Assembly (NCBI GenBank): GCA_947478455.1
Contig: CANJWR010000023.1
Span: forward strand, 1 to 37,921
DNA: 37,921 nt
DNA from: Beijerinckiaceae bacterium
Lineage (GTDB): Bacteria; Pseudomonadota; Alphaproteobacteria; Rhizobiales; Beijerinckiaceae
Direction: 5' to 3'
This document shows positions 8,901 through 37,921 of the stretch, piece after piece. The position numbers and the translations under genes were made by a program. The notes beneath the pieces were generated by a model. It was not told the DNA's origin, did no database searches, and saw only the letters and a list, made by a program, of their open reading frames with translations. Every line of letters begins with the position of its first letter. Position 1 is the first letter of the stretch.

Positions 8901-8927
8901 AACATCCCGTCAGAATGGCTTTGACGA

Positions 8928-10136
8928 ATGGCTGAAACCGCAACAGCGCCTGACCTGCGCGTTATCGAGCTTAGCCCCATCGATTCGCTGGGCGATCTTG
9001 CTCCGTTCGAGCAACCGCATTTTCTGCCGGAAGAGCGGAAGAGCTTTCTTCGCCGCTGGGCGTTGTTTATCTGTTTGGTCGTGGCGCCAGTCATCGTCGG
9101 CGGGGGATATTTCGCATTTCTGGCCAGCGATCAATTTATCTCTGAGGCCAGTTTTTTTGTTCGCGCATCCTCATCGACAGAGGGCGCTGGCGGACCTTTA
9201 AATCTGTTCAGTCCGCCGGGATCCTATACGCGGTCGGTTGAAGATACGCATGCCCTGAACGAATACATGCAGTCGCGTGACATGGTCAATATTCTGATCA
9301 AGGAAGACGGTCTGCGCGAAATTCTCAGTCGTCGGGAAGGGGATTTTATTGCCCGCTTTCCGAATGTTTTTTCCAAGAACACACAGGAAGCGATCTACGG
9401 ACATTTCCGTAAAATCGTCAATGTTAGCGTCGACAGCGGGACCGGCATCAGCTTGCTGGAAGTCAGGACATTCACCCCCGAGGATTCCAAGAAACTGGCC
9501 GAAGCGCTGATCCGCCATGGTGAGGCTTTGATCAACAAACTCAACTCGCGGGCGCGAGACGACGCAGTCAAGGTTGCTCAGACGGAGGTAAAACTCGCCG
9601 AAAAACGGCTTGAAGATTTGCAGGTTCGCATGACGGACTTTCGCAACAGTGAAATGATTCTTGACCCTCTTCGGCAGTCGACTGCAGCGCTTGAAGCCGT
9701 GTCCAAAATGGCCGCAGAAGTCGCCAGGCAACAGGCTCAATTGGCGCAGGTGCTCGCCATGGCTCCCAACAGTCCGCAGGCGCAGCCCATTCGGGAAAGC
9801 ATCAAGGCTCTGAGAGCGCAGATAGAGTTACAACGTTCGGATATCGTGGGCGGCGATCGCTCGCTCTCGTCGAAGCTTGGCGCCTATGACCGGCTTTCAC
9901 TGGAGCGCGAACTGGCGACGAAGTCGCTTGCTTCGGCTCTCGCTTCGCTTGAGTCGGCCAGGCGGGAAGGGCAGAAACAGCAACTGTATCTGGAAACAAT
10001 CGTTCAGCCCCATCTCTCAGACTATTCCACCTACCCCCGTCGACTGTTGATGTTCCTCATAATACTGGGCGGATCTTTGTCGCTCTTCTGGATCGTCAAT
10101 TCGATGCGCGAGATTCTTCGGGAGCATCAGGCGTAA
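8928..10136 (+). CDS. Capsule export inner-membrane protein, KpsE/CtrB/BexC family (second copy)
   Basis: This 402-aa protein is homologous to the product of 6923-8086. It has a longer cytoplasmic N-terminus (about 43 residues, acidic), a first membrane helix (about 44-68), a coiled-coil-rich periplasmic part, the motif QPHLSDYSTYPRR, and a second helix (about 372-392). Known group 2/3 capsule loci encode one such PCP-3 protein, so two in one operon is atypical. They may form a mixed oligomer, or one may serve a different step. The stop codon overlaps the kpsT start as TAATG, so kpsT is translationally coupled to it. The gap after kpsM is only 27 bp. Confidence 0.88.
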   Translation: MAETATAPDLRVIELSPIDSLGDLAPFEQPHFLPEERKSFLRRWALFICLVVAPVIVGGGYFAFLASDQFISEASFFVRASSSTEGAGGPLNLFSPPGSYTRSVEDTHALNEYMQSRDMVNILIKEDGLREILSRREGDFIARFPNVFSKNTQEAIYGHFRKIVNVSVDSGTGISLLEVRTFTPEDSKKLAEALIRHGEALINKLNSRARDDAVKVAQTEVKLAEKRLEDLQVRMTDFRNSEMILDPLRQSTAALEAVSKMAAEVARQQAQLAQVLAMAPNSPQAQPIRESIKALRAQIELQRSDIVGGDRSLSSKLGAYDRLSLERELATKSLASALASLESARREGQKQQLYLETIVQPHLSDYSTYPRRLLMFLIILGGSLSLFWIVNSMREILREHQA

Positions 10137-10894
10137 TGCAGTGGTTGCCCACATTGCAGAAGGCGGCGCAATTGCCGCAAGTGATCGCCGACCGGATCGG
10201 AACGGTCGAAGCGGCGAGTGATGCGCGACGGTCATCGTTGGGCCGCCGGATTGTGCTCGAAGATATTGTCAAGGATTACCATACCGAGATCGGCAGACGA
10301 CGCATCCTCGACGGAATTGGATTTAGCATCGCACCCGGTGAGAAAATCGCTGTTCTTGGTGTGAACGGCGCAGGTAAGTCCACGCTTGTGAAGATAATCG
10401 GTGGTGTAGAGCCGCCGACCTCCGGCGTCATTCATCGCGGCCTGTCCATGTCGTGGCCGATCGCTTTCGGTGGCGGATTTGAAGCCGCAATGAGCGGGAT
10501 GGACAACATTCGTTTCATCGCCAGGATATATGGCGCTTCGGTGAAGGACACCGTGGCGTTTGTCGACGACTTCGCAGAACTGGGCCGTTTGTTATACGTT
10601 CCGGTGCGGACTTACTCGTCCGGTATGCGGGCGCGTCTGGCATTCGCCTTGACGCTGGCGATCGATTTTGAATGCTTCCTGATCGACGAAGTGATCGCGG
10701 TGGGCGATCAGCGTTTTCATCGCAAATGCCATGACGCGCTTTTCGTCAAGCGCCGCGACAGCGCGATGATTCTGGTCAGCCATGACCTCCACATCATCAA
10801 GCAATATTGCGACAAGGCCCTCATTTTGAAGGCCGGACGCGGGCGCGTCTTCACAGATATCGATTTCGCGCTGGATATCTATCGCACGCTTTAG
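10136..10894 (+). CDS. kpsT: Capsule polysaccharide ABC transporter ATPase, KpsT/CtrD/BexA family
   Basis: This 252-aa ATPase has Walker A GVNGAGKST (75-83), signature YSSGM (160-164), Walker B ending LIDE (182-185) and the switch His216 in SHD. It energises polysaccharide export with KpsM. It lacks the C-terminal carbohydrate-binding domain of Wzt-type O-antigen exporters, which supports the KpsT class. About 35 residues before the conserved domain exceed the usual 215-220-aa length. The start is nevertheless supported by the TAATG overlap with the upstream stop. The 3' end overlaps the convergent epimerase gene by 4 bp. Confidence 0.92.
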   Translation: MQWLPTLQKAAQLPQVIADRIGTVEAASDARRSSLGRRIVLEDIVKDYHTEIGRRRILDGIGFSIAPGEKIAVLGVNGAGKSTLVKIIGGVEPPTSGVIHRGLSMSWPIAFGGGFEAAMSGMDNIRFIARIYGASVKDTVAFVDDFAELGRLLYVPVRTYSSGMRARLAFALTLAIDFECFLIDEVIAVGDQRFHRKCHDALFVKRRDSAMILVSHDLHIIKQYCDKALILKAGRGRVFTDIDFALDIYRTL

Positions 10895-14667: not shown

Positions 14668-16521
14668 TCAGGCCCGAGCCTTGGCGGCTGGTACAAAATT
14701 CGCGATAGTCTTGCGGATATCGTCCGATGTGATTGCGCCGATGCATGGGCTGTGGCCGAGCGAGCCCGTTACGTAACAGGGCAGGTCTTCATTTCTCCAG
14801 CATGGCGTGCATGGAAATGCCTCGCTCATTGTGATGACACGCGATCTTCTGCGATGTTTCGTCAGGATTTCGCCGTTTGTCGGGCCAAACATTCCAATGA
14901 CGGGAATATCGAATGCCGAGGCTGCGTGAAAGAAGGCGGAATCGACTGATACAAGCGCGTCGAGCTTCGATACGAGCGCGAGTGACTTCTGCAGGGAGAG
15001 GCCTGCAGTCGTGGCAATGCCTTTTCCAGTCGGTAAGCCGTCTGAACTGTGATGGAACAGGACGAGGTCATAGTCACGGGATAGATCTGCAATGATCTCG
15101 CGGATCTTGGCGTGATCCTTGTAGGAGTCTCGCGAATAGGGCTGAACGCCGATAATCGGCCTTGCACCGAAGCCTGTTTCCCTGAAAAAATCCTCCGCAA
15201 AGCGCTTCTGGGCGTCGGTCAGATTGATTTCAACGCCCCGTCCGGCCTCGTTCAACCTCGATTTCCGCACACCCATTGCGGCCGCAAAAAGTTCGACTCT
15301 GTCTTTCCGGATATTCGGGCGCTTGCGGACTTCGTATTTGGTTGCCGGACAAGCGGTGAAGTTATGCCACTTGCGATAGTTCTGAAGGTCCAACGGAGGA
15401 CCGTCTATGTCGACTAACTCAACATGAGGGTTGTTGGCGAAAACCGGGAAAAATTTCTGCGGCACCGCAACGCGGACGGGCCGGCCAATCTTTTTAGAAA
15501 GCGCGCGCAATCCAGGCGTCATCATCAGCAAATCGCCAATGCCGCCCATGGCGCGCGTTACAAGAACGTCCTGCCCATCGGAGGCGCTTCCGTCGGCTTG
15601 AGCGCCCTTGAGGTAGGATGTCGGCTTCACGCCACGGAAGGACAGCGCCAGCAGAGCGACTTGAAGCAGCCGCGAGTTAAAATTTACAATTCTTTTAGCT
15701 CGCTTGTCTCTGCCGGGCTTGCCGCGCTTGCGACTAGCCTCAGCGATGCGGTTAGCAAAATAGCCGACTGTCGAAATAAGCCGGCCCGACGGTAAGGGGT
15801 CGGCGCCTTTGATGCTTATGAAAGGCGCTAATTTCAGACCGATATTGCGAGCCTGCAGGGGTTCGCGTTGCGTGAGCATTAACGCATGCAAAAAGGCGAT
15901 TCTGGCGCAATGGCGAATATCGCCCAGCGCCGTTCTGGCCTGCAGATCAAGGCTAAGAAGATCAAGCGTCCGGTGAATGTCGGCCTCAATCAGATAGGGT
16001 CGGTCTGCGTAATGGGCGAGTATCTCGCGGGTGCCGGCAGGGTCGCCGCGTAACATTCTCGTTTGGCCGTGAATGAGCACCGCCCGCAGATATTCGGTCG
16101 GGTAGGATCTGACTTCTGTTTTCGCGAAGGCCTCTACGACAGCTTCGAAATGTTTGCCGATCAGCGGATCGTCCGTGCGGAACAGAAATTCATTGGCCTT
16201 GAGCGCATCTTCCAGCGCCTGATTGATGCGAGCGCAATCGCGCGGGCGGATTTTTGGAAAGCCCGACTCCGTGTAGGGCTGGCGCGACAAAACCGAGATC
16301 AGATTTTCAATGGAAGCGAATTCGGAAGAAGTTAATTCTGCGCGCTGCGACACATGTTGAGCCAGTGCGCGCGAAGCCTTTTGGAGAAGCTTGAGACGTT
16401 CAGCCCATTCCGCCTCCTGCGATGGATCGACGTTTGAGGCGCTGCTCAGGAGATCGATGATCTCCGCCAGATCGCCAGAGGATGCGGAGCCGCCTTTGTC
16501 GGGTGTCGTGACGCCGTTCAT
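14668..16521 (-). CDS. GT9 (heptosyltransferase-like) protein with helical N-terminal domain, paralogue A
   Basis: This 617-aa protein is about twice the usual GT9 length. Residues 1 to about 290 are mostly predicted helical, with spacing reminiscent of TPR-like repeats. The GT9 part begins near 318 with VTRAMGGIGDLLMMTPG and continues with SVDSAFFHAASAFDIPVIGM, the sugar-nucleotide-binding region of heptosyltransferases. Near the C-terminus is C571-x2-C574-x7-C582-x10-C593, conserved in the adjacent paralogue and possibly metal-binding. The start overlaps the previous gene's stop as ATGA. With hldD and hldE nearby it may transfer heptose, but GT9 enzymes also use other donors. Confidence 0.8.
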   Translation of the reverse strand: MNGVTTPDKGGSASSGDLAEIIDLLSSASNVDPSQEAEWAERLKLLQKASRALAQHVSQRAELTSSEFASIENLISVLSRQPYTESGFPKIRPRDCARINQALEDALKANEFLFRTDDPLIGKHFEAVVEAFAKTEVRSYPTEYLRAVLIHGQTRMLRGDPAGTREILAHYADRPYLIEADIHRTLDLLSLDLQARTALGDIRHCARIAFLHALMLTQREPLQARNIGLKLAPFISIKGADPLPSGRLISTVGYFANRIAEASRKRGKPGRDKRAKRIVNFNSRLLQVALLALSFRGVKPTSYLKGAQADGSASDGQDVLVTRAMGGIGDLLMMTPGLRALSKKIGRPVRVAVPQKFFPVFANNPHVELVDIDGPPLDLQNYRKWHNFTACPATKYEVRKRPNIRKDRVELFAAAMGVRKSRLNEAGRGVEINLTDAQKRFAEDFFRETGFGARPIIGVQPYSRDSYKDHAKIREIIADLSRDYDLVLFHHSSDGLPTGKGIATTAGLSLQKSLALVSKLDALVSVDSAFFHAASAFDIPVIGMFGPTNGEILTKHRRRSRVITMSEAFPCTPCWRNEDLPCYVTGSLGHSPCIGAITSDDIRKTIANFVPAAKARA

Positions 16522-18278
16522 CGGATGTCGTTCCGTTGTGGGGCTGACTCAAGAAATGCCTGTACGGCGTCAATAACGATCGAGCGTGGAATCGCCGAAA
16601 GGCAGGGACTTGCGCCTACGTTCCTGGTGACCAGACACGGCTCATCTTCATTGCGCCAGCAGGGTGAGCATGGGAATTGCTTGTCCAGTGAGATGACTTT
16701 CACGCGGTCGAGGTGGCGGGTGCGGATCGCACCGTCAATCGGCCCGAACAGGGCCACGACCGGAATGTCGAAAGCCGACGCGCCATGCAGAAAGCTCGAA
16801 TCCACCGAAATAAGAACATCGAGCATGGACATGAGCGCAAAGGATTTGCGCAGCGAAAGGCCGGCCGTCGTGTAGATTCCTGGCCCGGAAGGAAGACCGT
16901 CCGACCGATGATGGAAAATAAGAATATCGTGGGTTCGGGCCAGTTCCTGAACGACCGCGTCCATGCCCGGATAGTTCCGGTATTCCTCGCGCGAGAAAGG
17001 CTGAACGCCGATGAGCGGCCGAGCGCCGAATTGGTGCTGCGTCTTGAATTCCTCGCAAAACGCCCGTTCTTCATCGCTCAGTTTGATGTCGATGCGCTGC
17101 CCAACCTGTTTGAGCATCCTCGCCTTGACGCCGATGCCGCGTGCGAACAATTCGACGCGACCTTTCTTGATGAAAGGACTGTTGGGCGCCTCATAGGCGC
17201 TTGCGGGACAAATCGTCAGGTTGAACCATCGCCGGACATTCTCCATTTCGATCGGAGGCCCGTCGATGTCGACAAGTTCGACATGCGGCAGATTTGCAAA
17301 AACTGAAAAGAACTTTACCGGGATGGCCATTTTAATAGGCTGACCGTAGCGCCGCGACAATGCGCGCAATCCCGGCGTCATCATCAGGAGATCGCCGATG
17401 CCACCCATGGCGCGCGTCACCACAATATCTTTCGTAGCGCCGCCGGTACCACCGCTTGACCGCAGCGGTATGTCGCCAAAGCGCAGCAGATAGAGATTCC
17501 ATCCCAGAAAGCCGGCGAATACATGCGCCTTGAAGCTGGCGATTTTTTGCGAAACCGTAACGTCATTCTTCCGTTCGCTCAGCAGCGGGTCCACGACGAA
17601 CGCGACGCCTTTGCGGTGTGCGCGCGAAATTGCATCCGCCCAGAAATGACAAATGGCTTCAATGACGCTGGCGCTTCTGGTTGTCTTCCCGCGCAGGCTG
17701 ATAAAATTCGCGAAGCGCCAGCCGATATACCAGGCTTGTCCCGGCCGCAGGCTCACGAGCAGCTTGACGTTCTGCATTGCAGCCTTTGCGCATCCATCGA
17801 TGTCGCCCAAGGCGGATTTGCATTGCAGATCGATCGACAGAATATCCATCATTCCGAAGAAGCCGGTCTGAATCGTATAGGGCCGCGCCGCAAGCGGACC
17901 CACGATAGCCTGCGCGCCTGCTGCGTCGCTGCGCAGGAGCTTCATGCGCGCATGAAGTGTCAGAACGCGCTGGAATTCGCCATCGTAACTGCGAACCTCG
18001 GTCTTGAGATAGGCAGCGATGATCCGATCGAATTGCTCCGCAATCGAAGGATCGCCCATGCGAAACAGGTCCGCATTGTCGATGAGGACCTTTTCAAGAG
18101 CGTCCGTAATTCTGGAACAGTCGGACGGGCGGACCCTGGGAAACCCCGAATTGGTGAAGGGCTGCCGTACAAAAAGTGCGATCAGTCGTTCTGCGGCTGT
18201 GAAATCCGTCGCCTCGAACGATTCAAGAAGTTCCGCGCCTTCAGCGAAAGAGCCAGCTTTTTTCGGGGGTCTTTGCAT
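16518..18278 (-). CDS. GT9 (heptosyltransferase-like) protein with helical N-terminal domain, paralogue B
   Basis: This 586-aa protein is a clear paralogue of the product of 14668-16521 over the whole length. Shared stretches include RQPFTNSGFPRVRPSDC against RQPYTESGFPKIRPRDC in the N-terminal domain, and VTRAMGGIGDLLMMTPGLRALS in the GT9 domain. The cysteine pattern recurs with identical spacing (C537, C540, C548, C559). The two genes overlap by 4 bp and are surely co-expressed. The order suggests a tandem duplication followed by divergence, with the two proteins adding successive sugars or working as a pair. The donor is probably ADP-heptose from context, unproven. Confidence 0.8.
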   Translation of the reverse strand: MQRPPKKAGSFAEGAELLESFEATDFTAAERLIALFVRQPFTNSGFPRVRPSDCSRITDALEKVLIDNADLFRMGDPSIAEQFDRIIAAYLKTEVRSYDGEFQRVLTLHARMKLLRSDAAGAQAIVGPLAARPYTIQTGFFGMMDILSIDLQCKSALGDIDGCAKAAMQNVKLLVSLRPGQAWYIGWRFANFISLRGKTTRSASVIEAICHFWADAISRAHRKGVAFVVDPLLSERKNDVTVSQKIASFKAHVFAGFLGWNLYLLRFGDIPLRSSGGTGGATKDIVVTRAMGGIGDLLMMTPGLRALSRRYGQPIKMAIPVKFFSVFANLPHVELVDIDGPPIEMENVRRWFNLTICPASAYEAPNSPFIKKGRVELFARGIGVKARMLKQVGQRIDIKLSDEERAFCEEFKTQHQFGARPLIGVQPFSREEYRNYPGMDAVVQELARTHDILIFHHRSDGLPSGPGIYTTAGLSLRKSFALMSMLDVLISVDSSFLHGASAFDIPVVALFGPIDGAIRTRHLDRVKVISLDKQFPCSPCWRNEDEPCLVTRNVGASPCLSAIPRSIVIDAVQAFLESAPQRNDIR

Positions 18279-28033: not shown

Positions 28034-28714
28034 ATATCGTCTCCTTTATAATCGGCATCAAAAGCGAGAATGCCAACAAGTGTCTGAATTATAAGGGCCT
28101 GACTTATCCGGGATGGAAATTCTGCCCATTTCCGACCGGGTGGCGTGGCATAACGTTCTTCGCCGACCGAGCAGGTTCTGCTGCCCGCAGGTGCTGCCAT
28201 ATCGCGGGGCTACCCTGAAGGTCAATATAGCGATTACAGATAGCGATCCCGACCGGTCGCTGATGGGGTCGTCTGAAATCCTTCTAGATTTGTCGGCAGG
28301 TTCCCATGGTCGCGGCGAACGGGTTGCGGCAAGCGTTGTACTGACAGAGGCTTGGGCGGGTTGATTTACCCTGCCTAAGGTTTGCTTCGCCCGTAGCGTC
28401 GCAATGGTGGCGAGACGCAGCCGGCGACTTCAACAATGGCAGAGCTGGCCAGCGGCGCCTCCGGTCGATTTGAAGCGACAATACAACCCGCACTTCCTCG
28501 AAGCGGTCTTGGAAGGGCAAGAAAACGAGACCGGGAACGCTCGTTCGGCCGGATCTAAGCTCGGGCGCGAGCCGAACAACCGTCGGTTGACGGATAATCC
28601 GGACGAGTTTTGCGCTTACTGGCCGAGTGTATGCCGGCGGTCGGGCGTTCTTTTGACAATTCTACTATCTGAACCAAAGTCGTTAGTTGATTCGCTCGAA
28701 CGGTGGAAACTCAG
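28034..28714. other. Long intergenic region between divergent genes
   Basis: About 680 bp lie between the divergent dehydrogenase and FkbM genes. Open frames exist on both strands (for example 28404-28739 plus and 28284-28520 minus), but their translations are low-complexity, rich in Arg, Pro and Ser, and match no family I know. The region contains promoters for both flanks and may hold decayed gene remnants or an unrecognised small RNA. No tRNA, intact IS or strong hairpin was seen. Confidence 0.4.
28088..28093 (-). promoter_or_regulatory. Candidate -10 element for the dehydrogenase gene
   Basis: On the minus strand this reads TATAAT, a perfect -10 consensus, about 55 bp upstream of the ATG at 28033 and its AAGGAG site (28041-28046). 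No good -35 hexamer is seen at the expected spacing, so the assignment is tentative. Confidence 0.3.
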
Positions 28715-29827
28715 ATGCTGGACTGGCGGCCGTCAGTAATCCTCAGTCAACTCGAAAAGATCGCCGGAACTATGCCGGAGTTCCATCTGGTCGATGTTGG
28801 GGCATCCGGCGGGTTGCATTCGTCCTGGTCGCAATGGGGCGACAGACTGCACGCATTGGGAATCGATGCGCTGGTCAAAGAGGTCGTCCGATTGACGGAC
28901 GCAGAAACGCGGCCACATGTGAAATACGCGGACGCTTTGGTGACCGGACCGCCTCGGATCTCGAGCGGAAAGTCCCGAAGCAACTATGCCCTGCATCGTT
29001 CGGCAGCCTATCTGGGAACAATTCTAAAGACCATGGGCCCAGAATTGGCCGCTTCAATGACGACGGACGAATTTCTGGCGTTGTGGGAAAAGGTGGCTCG
29101 GGGCGAATACGCAATGCCACCCAGCGAGGCGAACTACAGCAATGTGGCCGATCGAAATCAGGATCCGTTTTATGCGCACTATGCAAGGATGTTCGAAAAG
29201 GCCATTGGGTTGGAAGACGTTACTGTCAGCCGCCGAACGGTGCTGTTGGACGAACTCGTAGCTGCATCTGAGCTTCAGGAAGTTGATCTCTTGAAGGTCG
29301 ATACGGACGGATATGATCTGGACGTTTTACGGGGAGCCGACTCTACATTGGAAGGCGCTCTTTTCGTCGAAATCGAATGTCAGTTTCATGGCCTTATCGG
29401 GCCTGAAGAGAACGTCTTCGCCAACATCGACACTCACTTGCGAAATCGTGGGTTCTCTCTTCTCAAGCTGGCTCCATTCTCTTATGGCCGTTCGGCCCTG
29501 CCGCCAACGTTCGTTTACCCCCACTTACCTGCACAAACACGGACAGGCCCGCTGCAGTGGGCCGATGCGCTTTATGGACGGGATGTTCTGGGCGGCGATA
29601 ACGATGCAGGTCGATTGACGGATCGTCGGTTGCAAATAATGGCCTGCATCTTCGAGATGTATGGTCTTGAAGACATGGCGGCAGAATTAATTTTGCGCTT
29701 AACGCAAGCTTTCGGCGGCGAAGTCAGACCAATTCTTGACGCGCTTTCTGCAAAGCTTATGGGCGAAGGCACGACGTATGACGATGTGTGGAAGCAATTT
29801 GGCTCGTCTGTGGCGGGCTACGCATAG
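28715..29827 (+). CDS. FkbM-family methyltransferase
   Basis: This protein has 370 aa from ATG 28715, which has GGTGGA 7 bp upstream; the frame also opens with a GTG at 28703. The N-terminal motif FHLVDVGASGGLHSSW is a SAM-binding motif I, and LLKVDTDGYDLDVLRGA is the FkbM signature. About 80 residues follow the methyltransferase domain and are mainly helical, perhaps for oligomerisation. It probably O-methylates a sugar. It is the only plus-strand gene in this part of the locus, ending 18 bp from the convergent epimerase gene, so it has its own promoter in the long gap upstream. Confidence 0.78.
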   Translation: MLDWRPSVILSQLEKIAGTMPEFHLVDVGASGGLHSSWSQWGDRLHALGIDALVKEVVRLTDAETRPHVKYADALVTGPPRISSGKSRSNYALHRSAAYLGTILKTMGPELAASMTTDEFLALWEKVARGEYAMPPSEANYSNVADRNQDPFYAHYARMFEKAIGLEDVTVSRRTVLLDELVAASELQEVDLLKVDTDGYDLDVLRGADSTLEGALFVEIECQFHGLIGPEENVFANIDTHLRNRGFSLLKLAPFSYGRSALPPTFVYPHLPAQTRTGPLQWADALYGRDVLGGDNDAGRLTDRRLQIMACIFEMYGLEDMAAELILRLTQAFGGEVRPILDALSAKLMGEGTTYDDVWKQFGSSVAGYA

Positions 29828-29845: not shown

Positions 29846-30358
29846 TTACGCGAAATCCCGTTCCGACAGAATCGGATTTCGGACAGGCCACCAGAAATTG
29901 TAGGCTGGATCATTCCACTTGAGAGTAAACTGTCCCTCGCGATCATAAAGCGTATCTTGCTTGTAGTGGAATACGGCCGTCGGCGAGATCACCAGAAAGG
30001 CATTGCCGAATTTTGGCGGGATTAAAACCTGCTTGCGATTGTTGTCTGACAGAGTGAAAGACTTCCACTTGCGATACTGCGGTGACATCGGATCATTGTT
30101 GACAACAATAACGTAAATGACCCCGTAAATGCAGGAAATCAGCTTTGTCGTTACGCCATCGCCATGGATGCCGCGAAGAACGTGCTGGGACGACGTCGAA
30201 TAATCATCCTGAATAAACTTCGTTCGAATGCCGGCTTGATTGTAAAGCGTCTCATTGTAGATTTCCACGTAAGTGCCGCGAAAATCTTCGTGCTGCGTTG
30301 GCGGCGACACCAAGAGGACGCCGTCCAACTCTGTTTTCTCAACGTGAAATGACGACAT
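29846..30358 (-). CDS. RmlC-like sugar 3,5-epimerase (cupin), GDP-6-deoxyheptose epimerase type
   Basis: This 170-aa cupin has the RmlC active-site residues: H65 in LRGIHGD, Y132 in FHYKQDTLY and the DFRGTY strand (25-30). Unlike true dTDP-sugar RmlC (LRGLHYQ), it has LRGIHGD, FGNAFLVIS and the C-terminal NPILSERD. From memory these match the Campylobacter jejuni GDP-4-keto-6-deoxyheptose 3,5-epimerases (MlghB/DdahB). It would invert C3 and/or C5 of a 4-keto-6-deoxy sugar nucleotide. With gmd upstream in the operon, the substrate is more likely GDP-linked than dTDP-linked, and no dTDP-rhamnose genes are present. It is the last gene of the minus-strand operon. Confidence 0.78.
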   Translation of the reverse strand: MSSFHVEKTELDGVLLVSPPTQHEDFRGTYVEIYNETLYNQAGIRTKFIQDDYSTSSQHVLRGIHGDGVTTKLISCIYGVIYVIVVNNDPMSPQYRKWKSFTLSDNNRKQVLIPPKFGNAFLVISPTAVFHYKQDTLYDREGQFTLKWNDPAYNFWWPVRNPILSERDFA

Positions 30359-30368
30359 CTCTAGCCCT

Positions 30369-31841
30369 TTAGTTCAGTTCACGCGGAATATCTACAGCGT
30401 TGAAGAACGTGTCGTTGTCGTAGATATGCAGTACTTCCGGGTGGATTCCGAATTCGCTGAAATTCCGCTTTTCGTAGATCGCCTCATACTGCGCGCGCTT
30501 CTGTTTATAGTAGCCGTCAACCGCATAGGGTGGCAATCTCAAGCCGTGCTGGTATTCTCCGCCGATATTTCCCGCAACAGCATCGTCAAGCGCGGCTTCT
30601 CTTGTCTTGTAAGAGATGACTTTGCGCGACGGCTTGAATCGTTCTGGCAGACGGCTCTGCCGTTTCCCGAGCATCTGCGCGCAAAGCTCATTGGCGATAT
30701 GGGGCGAGCAAGTAAAGCCGTCCCTCTTGGTGCCGTTTGCAAACCAGATGCCGGGAACGTGGGACTCTCCAAGAAGCGGGAATGCGTCGACAGTCGTCGG
30801 CCGGAAGCCGGGGCCACGGAGTTCCATATTGGCGAAAAAGAAGCCGTAGTTGATTTCCTGAACAGCCGAGCGAAGCAGCACGTCGATGGCATGGACTCGC
30901 GCCTTGTGCTCCGGCTCAAACCAGACGCCCGACGACGCGCCAAGGTAATACTGACCATTGCCATATGGCACGACGTGGACGCCGCAAGCTCCGCCACGGT
31001 CGGTGGTGCGTATGACTGCATCCATATCCAGGATGTTTCTTTCGATTCCACCGCCGTCCCGCGTAATCCAATTCGGAAACGACAGGTCAACGCCTGATCC
31101 TGCGCCCCACAGCAGTCGCGGGGTGGCGTTGCGAATCTCCGGCACCTGATCAACCAACGCCTGGGCGAAACTGCCGTTGGCAAGCACGATATTCTTGCCC
31201 TTCAGCACGGTTCCGTCTGCAAGTTTGACAGCGCGGTCGGAGCCATTGATGAGCAGTCCTTCCACGGTCGAGTCTATTTGATCGACGCCCATGTTCCGAA
31301 AGGCTTTTTCGTAAACTTCGAGAACCTTGCGTGAATCGATGCGGCCATCGGGAACCCAGACCGAACGCTGCGTTTCGGAACGGTACTCGGGTTTCAGGAA
31401 TTTGATGTCTTCCGGATTAACGATCCGGTGTTCGATCTGGCGTTCGCGAAGTACTTTCAGCATGAAATCCATAGTCCGCCGTTCGTGCGGCGAACTCTGC
31501 GAATTCTCCAGAACGTAAGTGCCCCATTTGATGCTGATATCATCGGACGCTGCGGCCGATAACTCCTTGCAATAGTCGTCCCAAAGCTTGCCGCTCGAAA
31601 TCGTCAGTTCCGCCCGGTCGGCAAGAGCAGGGTTGTCAAACTGGCCGGGGGAAAGCTCCGCCCATACGTTGATCATCGCTCCTGCTGTCGTGGTGGCGGA
31701 ACCTTTCCGGGCGGCAGGGCCGATGATGGCGATCTTGAGACTCTTGTCCATGGACTTCAAACGATAGGCCATGGCGCAACCAAGGCCAGCGTTGCCCACC
31801 ACAATGGTGTCGTATTTTTTTTGTTGGAACGAACCAAACAT
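30369..31841 (-). CDS. FAD-dependent oxidoreductase, DAO (D-amino acid oxidase-like) family
   Basis: This 490-aa flavoprotein has an N-terminal dinucleotide-binding fold TIVVGNAGLGCAMAYRL. The glycine motif is G16-N-A-G19-L-G21, so the central Gly of the usual GxGxxG is Ala. Further family features are a middle DGRIDSRKVLEVYEKA, KNIVLANGSFAQALV and the C-terminal GPGFRPTTVDAFPLLGESHVPGIWFANGTKRDGFT (split), the second FAD-contact region of DAO proteins. They oxidise C-N or C-O bonds on amines and hydroxy acids. In this operon it may oxidise an amino sugar or sugar intermediate, a role not usual in capsule loci. The stop lies 10 bp before the epimerase start. The substrate is unknown. Confidence 0.8.
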   Translation of the reverse strand: MFGSFQQKKYDTIVVGNAGLGCAMAYRLKSMDKSLKIAIIGPAARKGSATTTAGAMINVWAELSPGQFDNPALADRAELTISSGKLWDDYCKELSAAASDDISIKWGTYVLENSQSSPHERRTMDFMLKVLRERQIEHRIVNPEDIKFLKPEYRSETQRSVWVPDGRIDSRKVLEVYEKAFRNMGVDQIDSTVEGLLINGSDRAVKLADGTVLKGKNIVLANGSFAQALVDQVPEIRNATPRLLWGAGSGVDLSFPNWITRDGGGIERNILDMDAVIRTTDRGGACGVHVVPYGNGQYYLGASSGVWFEPEHKARVHAIDVLLRSAVQEINYGFFFANMELRGPGFRPTTVDAFPLLGESHVPGIWFANGTKRDGFTCSPHIANELCAQMLGKRQSRLPERFKPSRKVISYKTREAALDDAVAGNIGGEYQHGLRLPPYAVDGYYKQKRAQYEAIYEKRNFSEFGIHPEVLHIYDNDTFFNAVDIPRELN

Positions 31842-31860
31842 GCAAGTGCCCCGCTAGCAG

Positions 31861-32976
31861 TTATTCACCCGGAACGTCATTTCTCCAGGTGGGAAGATTT
31901 TCGTCGATCAGTCCCCAGTCGGGTCCGTTGAATCGGTAGCCGCGATCTCCACGCAAAATTCGAGATAGTTCACGTTCGTGTTCGGACCAGCTCATGCTTT
32001 CATTCGCGTCGTTTCGACCTGATCGATCATGGTCTGCATGAAAGACACGATGGGGTTGCAAGTAAATAGCCTGTTCGTATCCTGCGGCGAATAGTTGCAC
32101 GATCGCATAGGCGTCAAGGTGCATATAGAAATCTGCGGTCTCGGGCATGCCGAAAATTGCGTCGAACGCAGCGCGAGGAGCGAGGATGAAATCGCCTGAC
32201 GCATTTGTATGCAGAAAAAAGCCTCGCTGGTAGCGATCGCTCTCGAACTGCTCACGCCAGACCTGCATTTCTCGCGTATCGAGCGTCGAAGGAAGCAATC
32301 GCAATTGTCTGTCGTTGCGCCAGATCAAGGCAGCGCCATGACAATAGGCCGCACCGCTATTGCCATCTCGAAAATCACCAAGCTCCATGCCGGATCCTTT
32401 GGCGACAAGGTCCCCTTTTTGGGCCGGCACGGAGATGGGCTCGTCGCTGGGGCGATGACGACGATGCACACAGAACACGTTGTCGAGGGCAGTTGCTTCA
32501 AAGTCCTGTATCGGCACATTGCGACAGGGCTCAAAATCAAAATCACAACGATCGGCGCGAAAGAAGTGACGGGAAGAAAGCCTTTTCCCGGCGATCTCCA
32601 GCATAATGCTGTCGCTGGGAAAAATATCCTGATTGACCACAAGCGTGAATTCGCCGCGCCCTCGACGAATGGCGACATTCCGGCCGATGTAGTCCAGCAT
32701 CTTGCGCGCGGATGTTCCGTAGCGACTTAAATGGGTGTCCTGTGGCACAACAACATGCGTGACATCTCCGCATTCCGACCAGTTGAAAGCTTCTCGGAGT
32801 GGCGGACGATCAGCGGGTGGGTTGTAGTCACAGATGACGAATTCGAAAATTCCAGGGAATTTTTTTGCATAGTAGCCGTAGTACTCGATGAAGCGCTCGA
32901 TGCGACGTTCAAGATCACCACCATAGCCGTCGTTCCGGTTGGTAAACGCGATGCTGCAATAGGGCGAATAGCTCAT
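31861..32976 (-). CDS. GT-A-like glycosyltransferase (GT2-related)
   Basis: This protein has about 371 aa from ATG 32976, which directly follows the upstream methyltransferase stop (TGAcATG); the frame also allows ATG 33000. The N-terminus YCSIAFTNRNDGYGGDLERR and FEFVICDYNPPADRPPL match the nucleotide-binding start of a group of poorly characterised GT-A enzymes that begin 'TRNDxHGG'. VVNQDIFPSD probably replaces the DxD metal motif, and FHADHDRSGRND lies near the C-terminus. It is probably the enzyme that adds the unusual sugar made by this operon. Fold assignment is fairly sure; donor and acceptor are unknown. Confidence 0.7.
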   Translation of the reverse strand: MSYSPYCSIAFTNRNDGYGGDLERRIERFIEYYGYYAKKFPGIFEFVICDYNPPADRPPLREAFNWSECGDVTHVVVPQDTHLSRYGTSARKMLDYIGRNVAIRRGRGEFTLVVNQDIFPSDSIMLEIAGKRLSSRHFFRADRCDFDFEPCRNVPIQDFEATALDNVFCVHRRHRPSDEPISVPAQKGDLVAKGSGMELGDFRDGNSGAAYCHGAALIWRNDRQLRLLPSTLDTREMQVWREQFESDRYQRGFFLHTNASGDFILAPRAAFDAIFGMPETADFYMHLDAYAIVQLFAAGYEQAIYLQPHRVFHADHDRSGRNDANESMSWSEHERELSRILRGDRGYRFNGPDWGLIDENLPTWRNDVPGE

Positions 32977-32977
32977 G

Positions 32978-33517
32978 TCATGCCCGTGTCGCTTCGACAT
33001 TGAGCATCATCAGGCGACCATTTTCCTTATCCATGTGCGGCAGATAGGCTTGGCTGAAATCGTCAATGCCGGCGCGCCCGATATCAGTGTCTCGCCAATC
33101 ATATCGATTGACGTCGCGAAAGCCGGCTTCGAGAATGCCGGCGCTCAATGTTTCAAAATTGAAGATCATTCCATGCCAGTCGTAATCATCCTTCTGTCCG
33201 CCGATCAGAAGACCAAGCAACTCTGGAAGATTTCCAACTTCCCGATATCGCTCAACGCAAGCGTCGAAATCAGCGGTTGAAAGGCGAAGCAGACCGCCGG
33301 GCTTGAGGACGCGAGCCCATTCCTTGAGAATGCCGATCCATTCACGTCGACCGAAATGTTCGATTGCCGCGCAACTGTAAACCATATCCACAGAAGCATC
33401 GTCCCAGGGAAGCTTCGCTAGATCGGCGATCTTGTCGACCGCAGCTGACGGCAGGATATCGACATTGATATAGCCCGGAAGCCGAATTTTTCCGCAGCCC
33501 AGATGAAGTTTTGTCAT
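32978..33517 (-). CDS. Small class I SAM-dependent methyltransferase
   Basis: This protein has 179 aa from ATG 33517, which overlaps the gmd stop as ATGA; the frame also opens at 33532. It begins at once with motif I (KLHLGCGKIRLPGYINVDI), then DMVYSCAAIEHF and the WARVLKPGGLLRLS strand typical of methyltransferase type 11 proteins. Such compact enzymes in polysaccharide loci are often sugar-modifying or regulate chain length by capping. The position between gmd and the glycosyltransferase suggests it acts on the GDP-sugar or the growing glycan. The acceptor is not known. Confidence 0.8.
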   Translation of the reverse strand: MTKLHLGCGKIRLPGYINVDILPSAAVDKIADLAKLPWDDASVDMVYSCAAIEHFGRREWIGILKEWARVLKPGGLLRLSTADFDACVERYREVGNLPELLGLLIGGQKDDYDWHGMIFNFETLSAGILEAGFRDVNRYDWRDTDIGRAGIDDFSQAYLPHMDKENGRLMMLNVEATRA

Positions 33518-34593
33518 GGCTGCTTCCTCCATCGCGAAATAGCATCTTCGGGTACGGCATCTTCGAAGCCGTAGTCGGAATAAGCCAGATCGTACCGCAC
33601 CATGATCCGGGCAAGCTCCGCTACGTTCGTGCGGGCGCGCCAGCCGATCTCCTGGGCAATCTTGGTTGGATCGGCCTGCAGATGCTCGACTTCCAGGGGG
33701 CGCAAATATCTCGGATCAGTTTTCACAAGAGGCTTGCCGGATCTGGAATCGACGCCGATCTCCAATTTGTCATCCCGGATCCAGTCGAGGTGAATATTCA
33801 CTTCGGCGAAACACAATTCGACAAACCTGCGCACGGTGGTCGTAACGCCGGTGCCTACGACATAATCTTCGGGCCGTTCTTGCTGCATCATAAGCCACAT
33901 GGCTTCAACATATTCAGGCGCATATCCCCAGTCGCGCTCGGCGTCGAGATTGCCGAGCACCAGAGTGTCCTGTTCGTCGCGCGCGATGCGAGCCACAGCC
34001 TGGCTGATCTTCTTGGTCACAAAAGTTCGGCCACGTCTGGGCGACTCGTGATTGAACAGGATCCCGTTGACAGCGAACATGTCGTAAGCTTCGCGATAGT
34101 TTCTGACGGTCCAGTAAGCGAAGAGCTTGCCGGCCGCGTAGGGGGAGCGGGGCATGAACGTCGTAGCCTCGCTTTGCGGAACGGTGCCGGGCAGGCCGCC
34201 GAAAAGCTCCGACGTGGAAGCTTGATAAAATCGCGATGCAAGCCCGATCTCTTTGACCAGACTTAGAATGCGCAACGCTCCGAGCGCATTCACTTCAGCC
34301 GAATAGTCGGGCACATTAAACGATACCTGCACGTGGGATTGTGCAGCTAGATTGTAGATCTCGGTCGGTTGAGTTCTGATCAAGAGTGTATGGAGCGACG
34401 AGACATCGACCATATCGCCGTAGTGGGTCGTCACGGCCGGATTGGTCAGCAATCTGTCGATGCGTTTCGACGTAAAGTCAGAATTACGGCGAACGATGCC
34501 ATGAATTTCATAGCCTTTTGCCAGCAAGAACTCGGCCAGATAGGAACCATCCTGCCCGGTGATGCCAGTTATCAATGCGACCCGACGGGACAT
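33514..34593 (-). CDS. gmd: GDP-mannose 4,6-dehydratase family
   Basis: This protein has 359 aa from ATG 34593. The frame opens at 34626, but MSRRVALITGITGQDGSYLA is the conserved start of the family. It shows TGITGQDG (NADP binding), YNLAAQSHVQVSF, STSELFG (catalytic Ser and Glu) and SPYAAGKLFAYW (Tyr and Lys). NHESPRRG and ERDWGYAPEYVEAMW complete the fold. It dehydrates GDP-mannose to GDP-4-keto-6-deoxymannose. Closely related enzymes (DdahA/WcbK) use GDP-heptose instead, and the neighbouring heptose-type epimerase leaves that possibility open. No fcl/wcaG reductase is present, so the product is not simply GDP-fucose. Confidence 0.88.
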   Translation of the reverse strand: MSRRVALITGITGQDGSYLAEFLLAKGYEIHGIVRRNSDFTSKRIDRLLTNPAVTTHYGDMVDVSSLHTLLIRTQPTEIYNLAAQSHVQVSFNVPDYSAEVNALGALRILSLVKEIGLASRFYQASTSELFGGLPGTVPQSEATTFMPRSPYAAGKLFAYWTVRNYREAYDMFAVNGILFNHESPRRGRTFVTKKISQAVARIARDEQDTLVLGNLDAERDWGYAPEYVEAMWLMMQQERPEDYVVGTGVTTTVRRFVELCFAEVNIHLDWIRDDKLEIGVDSRSGKPLVKTDPRYLRPLEVEHLQADPTKIAQEIGWRARTNVAELARIMVRYDLAYSDYGFEDAVPEDAISRWRKQP

Positions 34594-34601
34594 AGCGGTT
34601 C

Positions 34602-35357
34602 TCAAGATTTTCGGGCGCGCAGCCATTGCCGAAAGGAAGCGTCAGAAGGCGGAACTCCAGTGTCGGCGTAGGCGTGGAACGAAATGTTGTCAAACCCGCA
34701 TTCCGAAAAGATCTTCGTTAACATCTCCCGCCCCCAAAGCTTCAGCTCAAGGAGCTCCCGGAAACGAACGGATTCGTCTGGCGCCTCAATGCTGATATGG
34801 TAATCGAGACTTACAGCCAAAGCATCCCGGTTGAAGACTGGATTGATTTCCTGCAAGATCGATGTCTCGCCAATCAGTTTCGTTCGTTTTTCCTGGCGTG
34901 GCGGGTCTAACATGACGGCCTCGCAATTCCACAAATCAGCCAAGAACCAAGCGTCGGGTTTCATCTTCGACGCAAGGGCGGCTACAAACTGCGCCATCTC
35001 GTCGCGATCGACATAATTGAGAACGTGAAAGAGCGCACAGGCAGAATCGAAATCCCGATCGGGAATCTGGTCAAGCTGAACAGGTGCGACAGTCACGTTT
35101 GCAAGACGGCGATCTTGAACTTTTGCTTGCAAGACCTGAACGAAGTCCGGATCGATTTCGACGCTGACCAGACGATCGACGCATTTGCTGATGAGTGTCG
35201 TGTGGTTTCCGGTGCCGGCGCCAATTTCTAAAACTTTCGGATTTCGAAGTTGGTTCAGGCCGGTCAATTCGGAAAATACAGCAATGTCGCGAGAGTAGTC
35301 CTTGTCGCCGTAAATACGATCATAGAAGCGAACGAAAGGACGGATACTACCGTTCAA
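34602..35357 (-). CDS. Class I SAM-dependent methyltransferase
   Basis: This 251-aa protein has motif I VLEIGAGTGNHTTLIS, RLVSVEIDPDFV, and ALFHVLNYVDRDEM in the active-site region, followed by the C-terminal LWGREMLTKIFSECGFDN. It starts with TTG at 35357, overlapping the aminotransferase stop by 4 bp. A GGAG sequence 8 bp upstream supports this rare start, and the next in-frame Met lies after the SAM motif. Methyltransferases of this kind beside PLP aminotransferases often N-methylate amino sugars; that role fits the position between DegT and gmd but is inferred. Together with the product of 32978 it gives the operon two methylation steps. Confidence 0.82.
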   Translation of the reverse strand: MNGSIRPFVRFYDRIYGDKDYSRDIAVFSELTGLNQLRNPKVLEIGAGTGNHTTLISKCVDRLVSVEIDPDFVQVLQAKVQDRRLANVTVAPVQLDQIPDRDFDSACALFHVLNYVDRDEMAQFVAALASKMKPDAWFLADLWNCEAVMLDPPRQEKRTKLIGETSILQEINPVFNRDALAVSLDYHISIEAPDESVRFRELLELKLWGREMLTKIFSECGFDNISFHAYADTGVPPSDASFRQWLRARKS

Positions 35358-36457
35358 TTGTTCGCTCCGAAAAATTCTCTGACCTTGGCGACAACGTGAT
35401 CGATGTTGGCGTCCGAAATGTGATGATGGAGCGGCAGCAGAATTCCTTGCTCAAACAAACTTTCGGCTACTGGCAGATTGGCGGGCGGCTCTACTCTGAG
35501 CTCGGGCTGCAGATGCATCGGGTAGAAGCAGCCTCGGCACTGAATGCCTGCCGATTCCAGAAATGCGCTTAGCTCTTCTCGCTTGCGCGTGAGAAGCGGA
35601 AACCTGAAGGCGACAAGTTCGGAACCATCAGTCACAGACATGAACCGCAGATCGCCAACGCCTTTCAAACCATCCATATAGCGGTTCCAGCGACGGGCGC
35701 GACCGGCCTTGATGGCTTCGAGTTTCGTCAATTGAACGCATCCAATCGCCGCCTGCAAATCGGTGATGCGGAAATTCATGCCGAGAGATGGATGAATAAA
35801 GGTCCCGGCGTTCGGGCGACCCTGATTGCGGAGCAGCCGCAACCGTTCTGCCAGTTTGTCATTGTCCGTGACCAGCACGCCTCCCTCGCCCATTGTGGCG
35901 AGCTTGTCCGAGAACATCGAGAATACCCCGATGTCTCCAAATGTTCCGGCGGCCTTTCCTCGATAGCGAATGGTCAGGGCCTGCGCTGCGTCTTCAACCA
36001 CGAGGAGGTTGTGTTCCCGCGCAACTTCCATGATTTCGGCGATTTCGCAGACCTGTCCAAAAATATGGACGGGCATGATTGCGCGCGTCGCGGGCGTGAT
36101 CGCCGCCCGGATGGCACGAGCTGTCGATTGAAAAGTGTCGGGATCCGCATCGACGAATACTGGCTTCAGGCCGGCGAAAACAGCGGCTGTTGCTGATCCG
36201 TAGAAAGTGAAAGTTGGAATGATGATTTCCGAGCCGCGAGGCAGGTCCAGCGTCAACAGCGCAAGAAAAAGTCCAAGAGTTCCGTTCGGCGCAAAGAAAA
36301 CGTGTTTGGCGCCAAGTTGTTCGGCGATCATTTTTTGCAGCTTGGCGCAGTTCGGGCCTTCGGTCAGCCAACGTGCGTCAAGGGATTCGTTCACGGCCGC
36401 CTTTTCTCGTTCGTCAAGAAAAAGATCGACCTGCATGATCTTTTCGGAACTGGGCAT
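35354..36457 (-). CDS. DegT/DnrJ/EryC1/StrS family sugar aminotransferase (GDP-perosamine synthase-like)
   Basis: This 367-aa PLP-dependent aminotransferase has VEDAAQA (154-160, PLP contact) and the PLP lysine K185 in FSMFSDKLATMGEGG. Because Lys is retained, it should aminate and not dehydrate (ColD has His there). Together with Gmd, the simplest product would be GDP-perosamine (4-amino-4,6-dideoxymannose). The RmlC-like epimerase could act before amination to give another isomer. The N-terminus lacks the usual FxxP..G start but keeps the ARWLTEGP turn. It overlaps the downstream methyltransferase by 4 bp and follows the unrecognised 397-aa gene by 64 bp. Confidence 0.83.
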   Translation of the reverse strand: MPSSEKIMQVDLFLDEREKAAVNESLDARWLTEGPNCAKLQKMIAEQLGAKHVFFAPNGTLGLFLALLTLDLPRGSEIIIPTFTFYGSATAAVFAGLKPVFVDADPDTFQSTARAIRAAITPATRAIMPVHIFGQVCEIAEIMEVAREHNLLVVEDAAQALTIRYRGKAAGTFGDIGVFSMFSDKLATMGEGGVLVTDNDKLAERLRLLRNQGRPNAGTFIHPSLGMNFRITDLQAAIGCVQLTKLEAIKAGRARRWNRYMDGLKGVGDLRFMSVTDGSELVAFRFPLLTRKREELSAFLESAGIQCRGCFYPMHLQPELRVEPPANLPVAESLFEQGILLPLHHHISDANIDHVVAKVREFFGANN

Positions 36458-36521
36458 GCTTGGGATATTCCCCGAGAGTTCGGACCGCCGCTATTGAGCG
36501 GGCAGATGATGGATTGGAATA

Positions 36522-37715
36522 TTATTTCATTTCTTCCGCCAAAGCCCGTGCAATCTCGCGTTCGGCCTGCGGACCGCCCAATGCGTAATCGGTCCAGTCG
36601 CCGCGAGGCGACAGTCGAGAAATCAGCCCCTCTATTGGCTTTTTCAAGTTGTCGAATGGGCGGGGTTCGGGCGCCGTGTAGTCTTCGGGCGTCGGTCCCC
36701 AGACAGGCGACTCGAGTTTTGCCTGTTTGACATTCGCCCAGCGCTGAACCGACACGCGTGCATTCATTTCATCAAGCGCGCGCTCTGGATGTTCGGTCGC
36801 GCCCGGAAGTTCGAAACCCAGACGCGCCAAACGGGAAACGAAATCTGATTTTGCGAGAGCGTTCCGGACAGCCAGGTATTTTACAACATGACATGGAGCC
36901 GAGCCGCCGGGGTAGTCCGGATAACTGTAAAGGACATAGATCGTATAGCCCTTCCGGGCGAACGCGCTGAATACCGCGGGCAACGCATAAAAAGTTTCTG
37001 GTTGTCCGTGATTGTAAACTGACACATCGTCTCGTGTTGTCGAATAGGCATCCTCGATCATGACCGCATCAAACCGGCCTGTTGCAAATTCGACGAATTT
37101 GCCGGCGTCGGGAAAAACATAACTGGCCACGAAGCGGGAGATCAGACCATTGAACTGATCGGTCTGAGGCACATCGTTGCAATCAGTGACGAGTTCGACG
37201 GCCTTGTCGTTATGGAGCAAACGGGTTGTGTCGTGCATGAACATTGAATTGTCGATGCCAACCCAATGCGGCTCCATTTGCTTCCAGTCGTCGAAAAGCG
37301 CACGAGCCGCTGTGTTGACGATCTCGAACCTCAATTTCGAAGCAAAGAATGTCGACCCGAGTTCAACCATTTGAGGCTTGATGGAGCCTGCCGCCTCCGC
37401 CAGCATTGTCATAATGGCTACGAAGTCAAAACTGAGCTGTGACAGTTGGTAATAGGGGTCGATGCGAGAGCGATCAGCCCTGGCCCAGACCGCGCCCTGA
37501 AGGCCTCGAAAAATGTTTGCCTGGTCCAGTTCCTCGAGTTCAGGCAATTTGGCCCGCAGCCGTTCGATGGCGAGGAATTCGGTGAGGTAAACCCAAGCAT
37601 ACATGCATTCGTGGGCTCGCTCACCCGCCAGCGCACGCCGCAATATCGGGGCGTCTCCCTTCACGAGATCGCCCCAGAGCAAAACAGGCAGGCGAACGGA
37701 ATGGTTGGTTTGCAC
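36522..37715 (-). CDS. Unrecognised 397-aa protein, possibly SAM-methyltransferase-like
   Basis: This appears to be the first gene of the long minus-strand operon. It starts with GTG at 37715, preceded by GGGGGA. I do not recognise the family. The middle contains MVELGSTFFASKLRFEIVN and HWVGIDNSMFM, which could be motif I and the acidic strand of a degenerate SAM-binding Rossmann fold. FDAVMIEDAYSTTRDD and GYTIYVLYSYPDYPGG follow. The C-terminal 80 residues (RLGFELPGATEHPERAL onward) are mixed helical. There is no signal peptide or membrane segment, so it is probably cytoplasmic. A sugar-modifying role is suggested only by the operon; it could also act in recognition or regulation. Confidence 0.6.
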   Translation of the reverse strand: MQTNHSVRLPVLLWGDLVKGDAPILRRALAGERAHECMYAWVYLTEFLAIERLRAKLPELEELDQANIFRGLQGAVWARADRSRIDPYYQLSQLSFDFVAIMTMLAEAAGSIKPQMVELGSTFFASKLRFEIVNTAARALFDDWKQMEPHWVGIDNSMFMHDTTRLLHNDKAVELVTDCNDVPQTDQFNGLISRFVASYVFPDAGKFVEFATGRFDAVMIEDAYSTTRDDVSVYNHGQPETFYALPAVFSAFARKGYTIYVLYSYPDYPGGSAPCHVVKYLAVRNALAKSDFVSRLARLGFELPGATEHPERALDEMNARVSVQRWANVKQAKLESPVWGPTPEDYTAPEPRPFDNLKKPIEGLISRLSPRGDWTDYALGGPQAEREIARALAEEMK

Positions 37716-37843
37716 TGAAATTCCCCCGGAAACCGTGAGTTATGACCTCTCGCAGGGACATAATCTCGACCCTTAACCAGAACGGTTCCGGATTGTCAAC
37801 GCGATGAGCTATGTCGGAAACTGGGTGACGGTATGAAGAAGGC

Positions 37844-37898
37844 GGCGTAACGGGGTTGGTGCTGAAGCCACCCGAACCTCCCGAAGGAGCGTTACGCC
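37844..37898. repeat. Inverted repeat before the last gene
   Basis: GGCGTAACG (37844-37852) and CGTTACGCC (37890-37898) are perfect 9-bp inverted repeats with a 37-bp spacer, ending directly at the ATG at 37899. They could be a regulatory dyad or part of the terminal sequence of an insertion element. Confidence 0.5.
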
Positions 37899-37921
37899 AT
37901 GAACGAGGATAGAGTGATCCC
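37899..37921 (+). CDS. Start of a gene cut by the window edge, possibly a transposase
   Basis: ATG at 37899 has a good GAAGGAG ribosome-binding site (37883-37889) 9 bp upstream. Only seven residues are visible (MNEDRVI). The intergenic stretch before it (about 37780-37850) differs in character from the flanks and, with the inverted repeat, recalls the left end of an insertion sequence, perhaps of the IS256 type. This is a weak guess; the remainder is outside the window. Confidence 0.4.

Follow-up and report, generated by a model that had tools for sequence, protein, structure and literature searches.

Described relatives and the locus

We know of glycine-derived amidine substituents from antibiotics alone. 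A relative of an enzyme that makes them is encoded in an operon of eight genes (29846-37715, minus strand) within a 37,921-nucleotide stretch of DNA from a Beijerinckiaceae bacterium, here called the window, and the operon appears to serve the biosynthesis of a guanosine diphosphate (GDP)-linked amino sugar. The described enzyme is Orf1 of BD-12 from Streptomyces luteocolor (PDB entries 7xqa and 7xyl), a flavin adenine dinucleotide (FAD)-dependent N-formimidoyl/iminoacetyl synthase of a streptothricin-type antibiotic. It is reported to oxidize glycine with its FAD, to bind the glycine imine to C281 as an N-O-S adduct, and to transfer a formimidoyl or iminoacetyl moiety onto an amine that lies 13.5 Å away (PMC10156733). 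The same paper reports that the glycine site is shaped by A54, G55, A56, M57, H284, Y294, R342, and R368, that the R342A mutant does not oxidize glycine, and that C281A and C281S give no product (PMC10156733).

The nearest functional precedent, likened to the window system by description and not by sequence, is KasN of kasugamycin biosynthesis. It is similar to the fortimicin formimidoyl synthase and is proposed to add glycine to a kasugamine precursor, which would then carry a glycine-derived carboxyformimidoyl group (PMC8869731). KasN serves an antibiotic and a UDP-sugar, whereas the window system would act on a GDP-sugar for a surface glycan.

On the sugar side, the operon resembles the GDP-perosamine pathway in that Gmd, a GDP-mannose 4,6-dehydratase, and a perosamine-synthase-like DegT aminotransferase are found together, and it differs from that pathway by an epimerase, two methyltransferases, the Orf1-like enzyme, and two proteins without a family match. 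Gram-negative surface glycans carry amidines on their amino sugars in another form as well, the acetamidino or acetimidoyl sugars of Pseudomonas and Legionella, but these are made by glutamine-dependent amidotransferases on N-acetyl groups and are not known to come from a flavoenzyme that uses glycine. Our literature searches, with most subscription journals outside their reach, found no formimidoylated surface glycan among the papers listed: N-formimidoyl combined with O-antigen returned nothing, formamidino combined with polysaccharide returned tRNA work only, and broader searches, which covered a small fraction of the matching papers, carry little weight; the accessible part of one further paper mentions formimidoylglutamate deiminase only (PMC12080928).

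The operon and its flavoenzyme

The eight open reading frames (ORFs) form a real and tightly packed operon, as the first-pass annotation had stated. They encode, in the direction of transcription, a 397-aa protein, a DegT aminotransferase, an S-adenosylmethionine (SAM) methyltransferase, Gmd, a small SAM methyltransferase, a 379-aa protein, a flavoprotein of the DAO type, and an RmlC-type epimerase. The successive intergenic distances are 64, -4, -25, -19, -23, 19, and 10 bp, so that four pairs overlap and the largest gap is 64 bp.

The flavoprotein (30369-31841, minus strand) matches the DAO family (PF01266, E 3e-29), in keeping with the FAD oxidoreductase named by the first-pass annotation, which had overlooked the kinship to N-formimidoyl synthases. 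Its best solved relatives are the Orf1 entries (7xyl, E 5e-47), which bear the name N-formimidoyl fortimicin A synthase, and by sequence it belongs to the Orf1 family. A ThiO-type glycine oxidase was considered and rejected, as the protein scored 84 bits against the cut-off of 250.8 of TIGR02352 and the best glycine-oxidase (ThiO-like) PDB entry reached E 2e-5, versus 5e-47 for Orf1. Like Orf1, it is an FAD enzyme of about 490 residues (490 vs 491 aa), and in the alignment all eight glycine-site residues and the catalytic cysteine are identical (A53, G54, A55, M56, C286, H289, Y299, R347, and R373 in the window protein). Orf1 belongs to an antibiotic cluster, the window protein to a surface-sugar operon of an alphaproteobacterium. 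Because the counterparts of R342 and R368 are kept with the rest of the glycine site, an amino-acid substrate is indicated.

The loop that carries the catalytic cysteine, ACGxH, shows as a gap in each of the ten ordinary DAO homologues that were aligned; nine of these come from relatives and the tenth from the same genome. These were drawn from 29 loci, 28 of which had an ORF of at least 330 aa; 10 matched the window protein and the 18 others, including the second-best PF01266 match of the source genome (L056), were left unaligned. Orf1 also has an additional domain of some 100 residues at its C-terminus; the window protein aligned with its Agrobacterium and Streptomyces finlayi relatives over 467-470 columns, and a structure prediction from a two-row alignment failed (predicted local distance difference test score, pLDDT, 32.4).

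Distribution and gene neighborhoods of the flavoenzyme

At E 1e-15 the flavoenzyme was found in its own genome alone among 397 genomes of the order, 385 of the class, and 398 of the phylum, in draws that overlap and with the best few candidates per genome scored. A family search gave four of 397 genomes, namely the source genome, a sister genome of the same genus (G035, 86% identity over 311 residues), G1317 (31%), and G1207 (29%). When genome contigs were searched with patterns of the window protein alone, a single locus was recovered, on contig CANJEY010000216.1 of the sister genome. With the G1317 protein as the query, two of the 67 genomes of its genus (g31) matched, G1317 itself and G1495; these are two species of a genus other than that of the window, and their proteins are 28-29% identical to the window flavoenzyme (31% for G1317 in the family search). 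Among 72,556 plasmid records there were 23 matches at E 1e-5, the closest from Agrobacterium (6e-41) and S. finlayi (6e-38).

In the tree, the proteins of the window, the sister genome, G1317, and G1495 group in a single clade inside the Orf1 family (support 98/97, and 99/96 once long and partial rows were dropped), and the Orf1-like group separates from the ordinary DAO homologues at 99/98 (100/100 in the reduced tree). Row L055_o1_417 was excluded throughout, L019, Psyr, and L025 in the reduced tree, and G1207 in addition in a second reduced tree.

In both G1317 and G1495, the gene for the Orf1-like enzyme is followed on its strand by a DegT gene as the next downstream ORF (with ORFs of 150 or 180 aa and longer counted), at a distance of about 550 and 26 bp, respectively. 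With 442 and 560 bits, these DegT proteins exceed the cut-off of 375 of the model for dTDP-4-amino-4,6-dideoxygalactose transaminase, and genes for WbqC, GT2, and methyltransferase proteins lie close by; a link between the flavoenzyme and a 4-aminotransferase can be read from the sequence of these two genomes. No DegT gene occurred in 43 loci of the ordinary DAO type, which span 2.2-4.1 kb and are not all independent: some are further segments of a gene already counted, and many match in the FAD-binding part alone. DegT was also absent from all four other Orf1-like loci, those of Agrobacterium, S. finlayi, Pseudomonas syringae, and G1207 (17-29 kb each). In the sister genome, the flavoenzyme (86%) and the epimerase (91%) are adjacent as they are in the window, and a gene for an FkbM-type methyltransferase adjoins the epimerase there too (61% identity); its window counterpart is the convergent downstream neighbor of the operon (28703-29827, plus strand; PF05050, E 4e-11).

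Orf1-like enzymes that have the cysteine loop are also encoded in plasmid clusters devoid of DegT, namely on Agrobacterium pAtCFBP5499c (L026, 13983-15473), in S. finlayi beside RidA and a nonribosomal peptide synthetase (L027, 11989-13446), and in P. syringae PP4 beside a 2-oxoglutarate oxygenase, an AMP-binding protein, and a MATE protein (L028, 8007-9455); these clusters are possibly unstudied natural-product loci. The G1207 enzyme is encoded near a LysE exporter and a TauD-family oxygenase that resembles clavaminate synthase, below the cut-off (L094, 9215-13000).

The sugar-forming enzymes

Gmd (33514-34626, minus strand) passes the GDP-mannose dehydratase model (TIGR01472, 479.5 bits, cut-off 415), and it matches GDP-mannose dehydratases in the PDB (5in4, E 2e-115). 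The pyridoxal phosphate (PLP) aminotransferase anticipated by the first-pass annotation is a DegT protein (35354-36457, minus strand; PF01041, E 5e-101) whose best PDB match is the perosamine synthetase 3bn1 (E 1.5e-75), presumably of Caulobacter origin. A lysine of the window protein aligns with the lysine of the "NK" motif of 3bn1, which we take to be catalytic; the operon hence holds both parts by which GDP-perosamine formation is recognized, Gmd and a perosamine-synthase-type aminotransferase with the aligned lysine. The GDP-perosamine route has no epimerization ahead of amination. The operon encodes an RmlC-type 3- or 3,5-epimerase (29846-30358, minus strand; PF00908, E 4e-44). This protein scores 133.6 with the rmlC model TIGR01221, below the cut-off of 155.75. 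Its best PDB matches are named GDP-D-glycero-4-keto-D-lyxo-heptose 3,5-epimerase (8db5, E 2.5e-33), presumably Campylobacter enzymes, which agrees with the resemblance noted earlier, and dTDP-4-dehydrorhamnose epimerases follow from E 2e-31 and 3e-28 on. Two Azospirillum epimerases are 61-62% identical to it and are encoded near a ketoacyl-acyl carrier protein synthase III (L095, 10915-12519; L096, 9998-10510).

The two methyltransferases of the first-pass annotation were both placed in SAM-dependent families. The first (34602-35357, minus strand), a possible sugar N-methyltransferase, has as its best PDB match 9ri2 ("Methyltransferase, putative", E 3e-6), while TDP-amino-sugar N,N-dimethyltransferases match at about E 1e-4. 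Its gene overlaps that of DegT by 4 bp, and a homologous pair on Azospirillum TSA2s p2 (36% identity for DegT and 25% for the methyltransferase) has the same 4-bp overlap, which suggests that this methyltransferase acts on the amino sugar. The second (32978-33532, minus strand; 184 aa; PF08241, E 1e-10) has a relative in the G1495 locus (L101) with 38% identity over 185 residues.

The two remaining proteins of the operon matched nothing in Pfam or NCBIfam. For the 397-aa protein (36522-37715, minus strand), the PDB search gave nothing significant, its five matches all being to BamA/YaeT with E values no better than 0.14; no plasmid relative was found, and a homologue occurred in one of 229 genomes of the family, the source genome itself. 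A putative sugar O-methyltransferase of Azospirillum, considered as its kin, proved unrelated on comparison. The 379-aa protein (31861-33000, minus strand) had no match among the plasmids and none in the PDB up to E 5, and its single-sequence structure prediction failed (pLDDT 32.5). Because both proteins have no family match and no meaningful PDB match, the glycosyltransferase assigned to the operon by the first-pass annotation was not confirmed.

A GDP-L-fucose pathway is disfavored, since none of the six genome matches to GDP-fucose synthase passed the cut-off (best 106 of the 500 bits needed, in an assembly 92% complete); the earlier statement that a reductase of the fucose type is missing stands.

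Proposed pathway and alternatives

Our best reading, on which confidence is evenly balanced, is that the operon makes an epimerized and methylated GDP-4-amino-4,6-dideoxyhexose, the amine of which is modified with a formimidoyl or iminoacetyl group derived from glycine. In this pathway, for which we infer the substrate, the order of the steps, the stereochemistry of the sugar, and the chemical group added, Gmd would convert GDP-mannose to GDP-4-keto-6-deoxymannose, the RmlC-type epimerase would invert C3 and/or C5, and the DegT enzyme would place an amine on C4. From the stereochemistry, epimerization before amination should give an L-configured or 3-epimeric 4-amino-4,6-dideoxyhexose. The two methyltransferases would methylate the sugar or its amine, and the Orf1-like enzyme would use its FAD to oxidize glycine or a similar amino acid, hold the product on its cysteine, and transfer it to the amine at C4 to give an N-formimidoyl or N-iminoacetyl amidine, after which the nucleotide-activated amino sugar would be used for a surface glycan. 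The new methylated amino sugar put forward by the first-pass annotation, here derived from GDP-mannose, is still the best broad reading, whereas its heptose alternative is not favored.

Several observations weigh against this reading. Foremost, E426 of Orf1 corresponds to Q431 in the window protein in four alignments, and the sister and both g31 relatives, that is, the whole clade, also have Q, while the E426Q mutant of Orf1 oxidizes glycine yet yields no end product (PMC10156733). Among the other relatives, Agrobacterium, S. finlayi, and G1207 have E at this position and P. syringae has L or D. All four clade members share the motif YQHG with this Q, absent in the other four relatives, so the change is a feature of the clade and not the decay of a single copy; given this residue, we describe the flavoenzyme as Orf1-like and do not claim functional membership. 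The residues at H419, N299, F279, A278, E312, E313, and F316 of Orf1 are altered in the window protein as well, and the tunnel mutants A278V and H419Y of Orf1 are reported to have lost transfer (PMC10156733). Furthermore, identity to Orf1 is just 28-30%. The G1317 and G1495 enzymes lack G55, H284, and Y294, so their donor may be other than glycine. Clade support falls to 93/98 with G1207 also dropped, and the branch of the window row is long and its composition unusual. Five genes separate DegT from the flavoenzyme in the window, counted from one to the other, and the 4.5 kb around the latter hold no DegT, as in ordinary DAO loci. The sister contig breaks off within the flavoenzyme gene; when that genome was searched with DNA, the flavoenzyme, the epimerase, and other window pieces were found but not the Gmd-DegT part, so the pairing with Gmd and DegT is unconfirmed there.

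The amidine is nevertheless the most likely group, and the main rival is an altered transfer step, in which the flavoenzyme oxidizes an amino acid but acts as an oxidase or leaves another N-substituent on the amino sugar, such as a longer iminoacyl group or an N-oxidized product. The transfer-dead residue at 426, the different tunnel and acceptor-site residues, and the changes in the g31 relatives make this a serious contender, if on balance an unlikely one, because a plain oxidase would have no need of the catalytic cysteine and its loop, which all four clade members keep. That the flavoprotein instead oxidizes the amine or a hydroxyl of the sugar, to give an oxidized methylated sugar with no amidine, would suit the general DAO fold family and its place in a sugar operon; it is improbable, as R342 and R368, which hold or border the glycine carboxylate, are kept with the remaining glycine site and point to an amino-acid substrate. 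Gmd with a perosamine-synthase-like DegT is a known pair, and the operon could thus be an ordinary one for GDP-perosamine or a related amino sugar with the flavoprotein and the epimerase as unrelated passengers. We regard this as very improbable: the flavoenzyme gene lies 19 bp after its upstream neighbor and 10 bp ahead of the epimerase gene on one strand, these two genes are neighbors in the sister genome too, and in another genus members of the flavoenzyme family are again found next to 4-aminotransferases.

A GDP-6-deoxyheptose pathway, which the first-pass annotation had allowed by naming GDP-heptose as a possible dehydratase substrate, is hardly to be expected. It draws partial support from the epimerase, whose nearest PDB relatives are GDP-heptose enzymes and for which one of the two Azospirillum relatives, that of TSA2s, has a GHMP kinase gene immediately before it; HddA, a kinase of the GDP-heptose route, presumably belongs to that kinase family. 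Since this kinase adjoins one relative, a heptose role may apply to the kin of the epimerase. For the window operon the heptose reading is not favored, because Gmd is a GDP-mannose dehydratase by both model and PDB matches and does not qualify as a GDP-heptose 4,6-dehydratase (7us5 reached just E 1.5e-28, against 2e-115), and because the heptose genes of the window are those of the ADP-heptose route; moreover, the gene table for the surroundings of the Azospirillum epimerases, which is incomplete, shows no gmd.

Genomic setting

The source genome is a draft of 4.60 Mb in 317 contigs, of which the window occupies contig C23. Elsewhere in the window, a KpsF-type isomerase passes its model cut-off, KpsE- and KpsM-like export proteins score under theirs, and an ATP-binding cassette (ABC) ATPase is closest to teichoic-acid and galactan exporters. 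The KpsE-like, KpsM-like, and ABC ATPase genes form an export block (6923-10894), in which an ORF between the latter two (8928-10136) looks KpsE-like by eye, with no Pfam match at E 1e-5. HldE domains and HldD exceed their ADP-heptose model cut-offs, and a GmhB-like gene falls below its own. Two GT9 glycosyltransferases are encoded as adjacent proteins of 586 and 617 aa (14668-18278), each with the heptosyltransferase domain at the C-terminus and a long N-terminal part without a Pfam match.

The last approximately 116 bases of the window (37806-37921) recur at six other places of the genome with 98-100% identity, three of them less than 160 bases from a contig start, and in two relatives at 91-92%, with few candidates scored. 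This repeat probably broke the assembly.

Implications

Beyond the single operon, we tentatively propose, with somewhat less than even confidence, that the Beijerinckiaceae clade of Orf1-like enzymes puts a glycine-derived N-formimidoyl or N-iminoacetyl amidine on GDP- or dTDP-linked 4-amino-4,6-dideoxyhexoses of surface glycans. A whole clade with Q in place of E426, which Orf1 needs, raises the question of a natural replacement for this residue. If the proposal is right, amidine sugars with their positive charge would be reached by a second route, beside that to the acetimidoyl ones, and a rare chemistry of flavin and cysteine N-O-S adducts would shift from antibiotic clusters to the building of cell-surface sugars.

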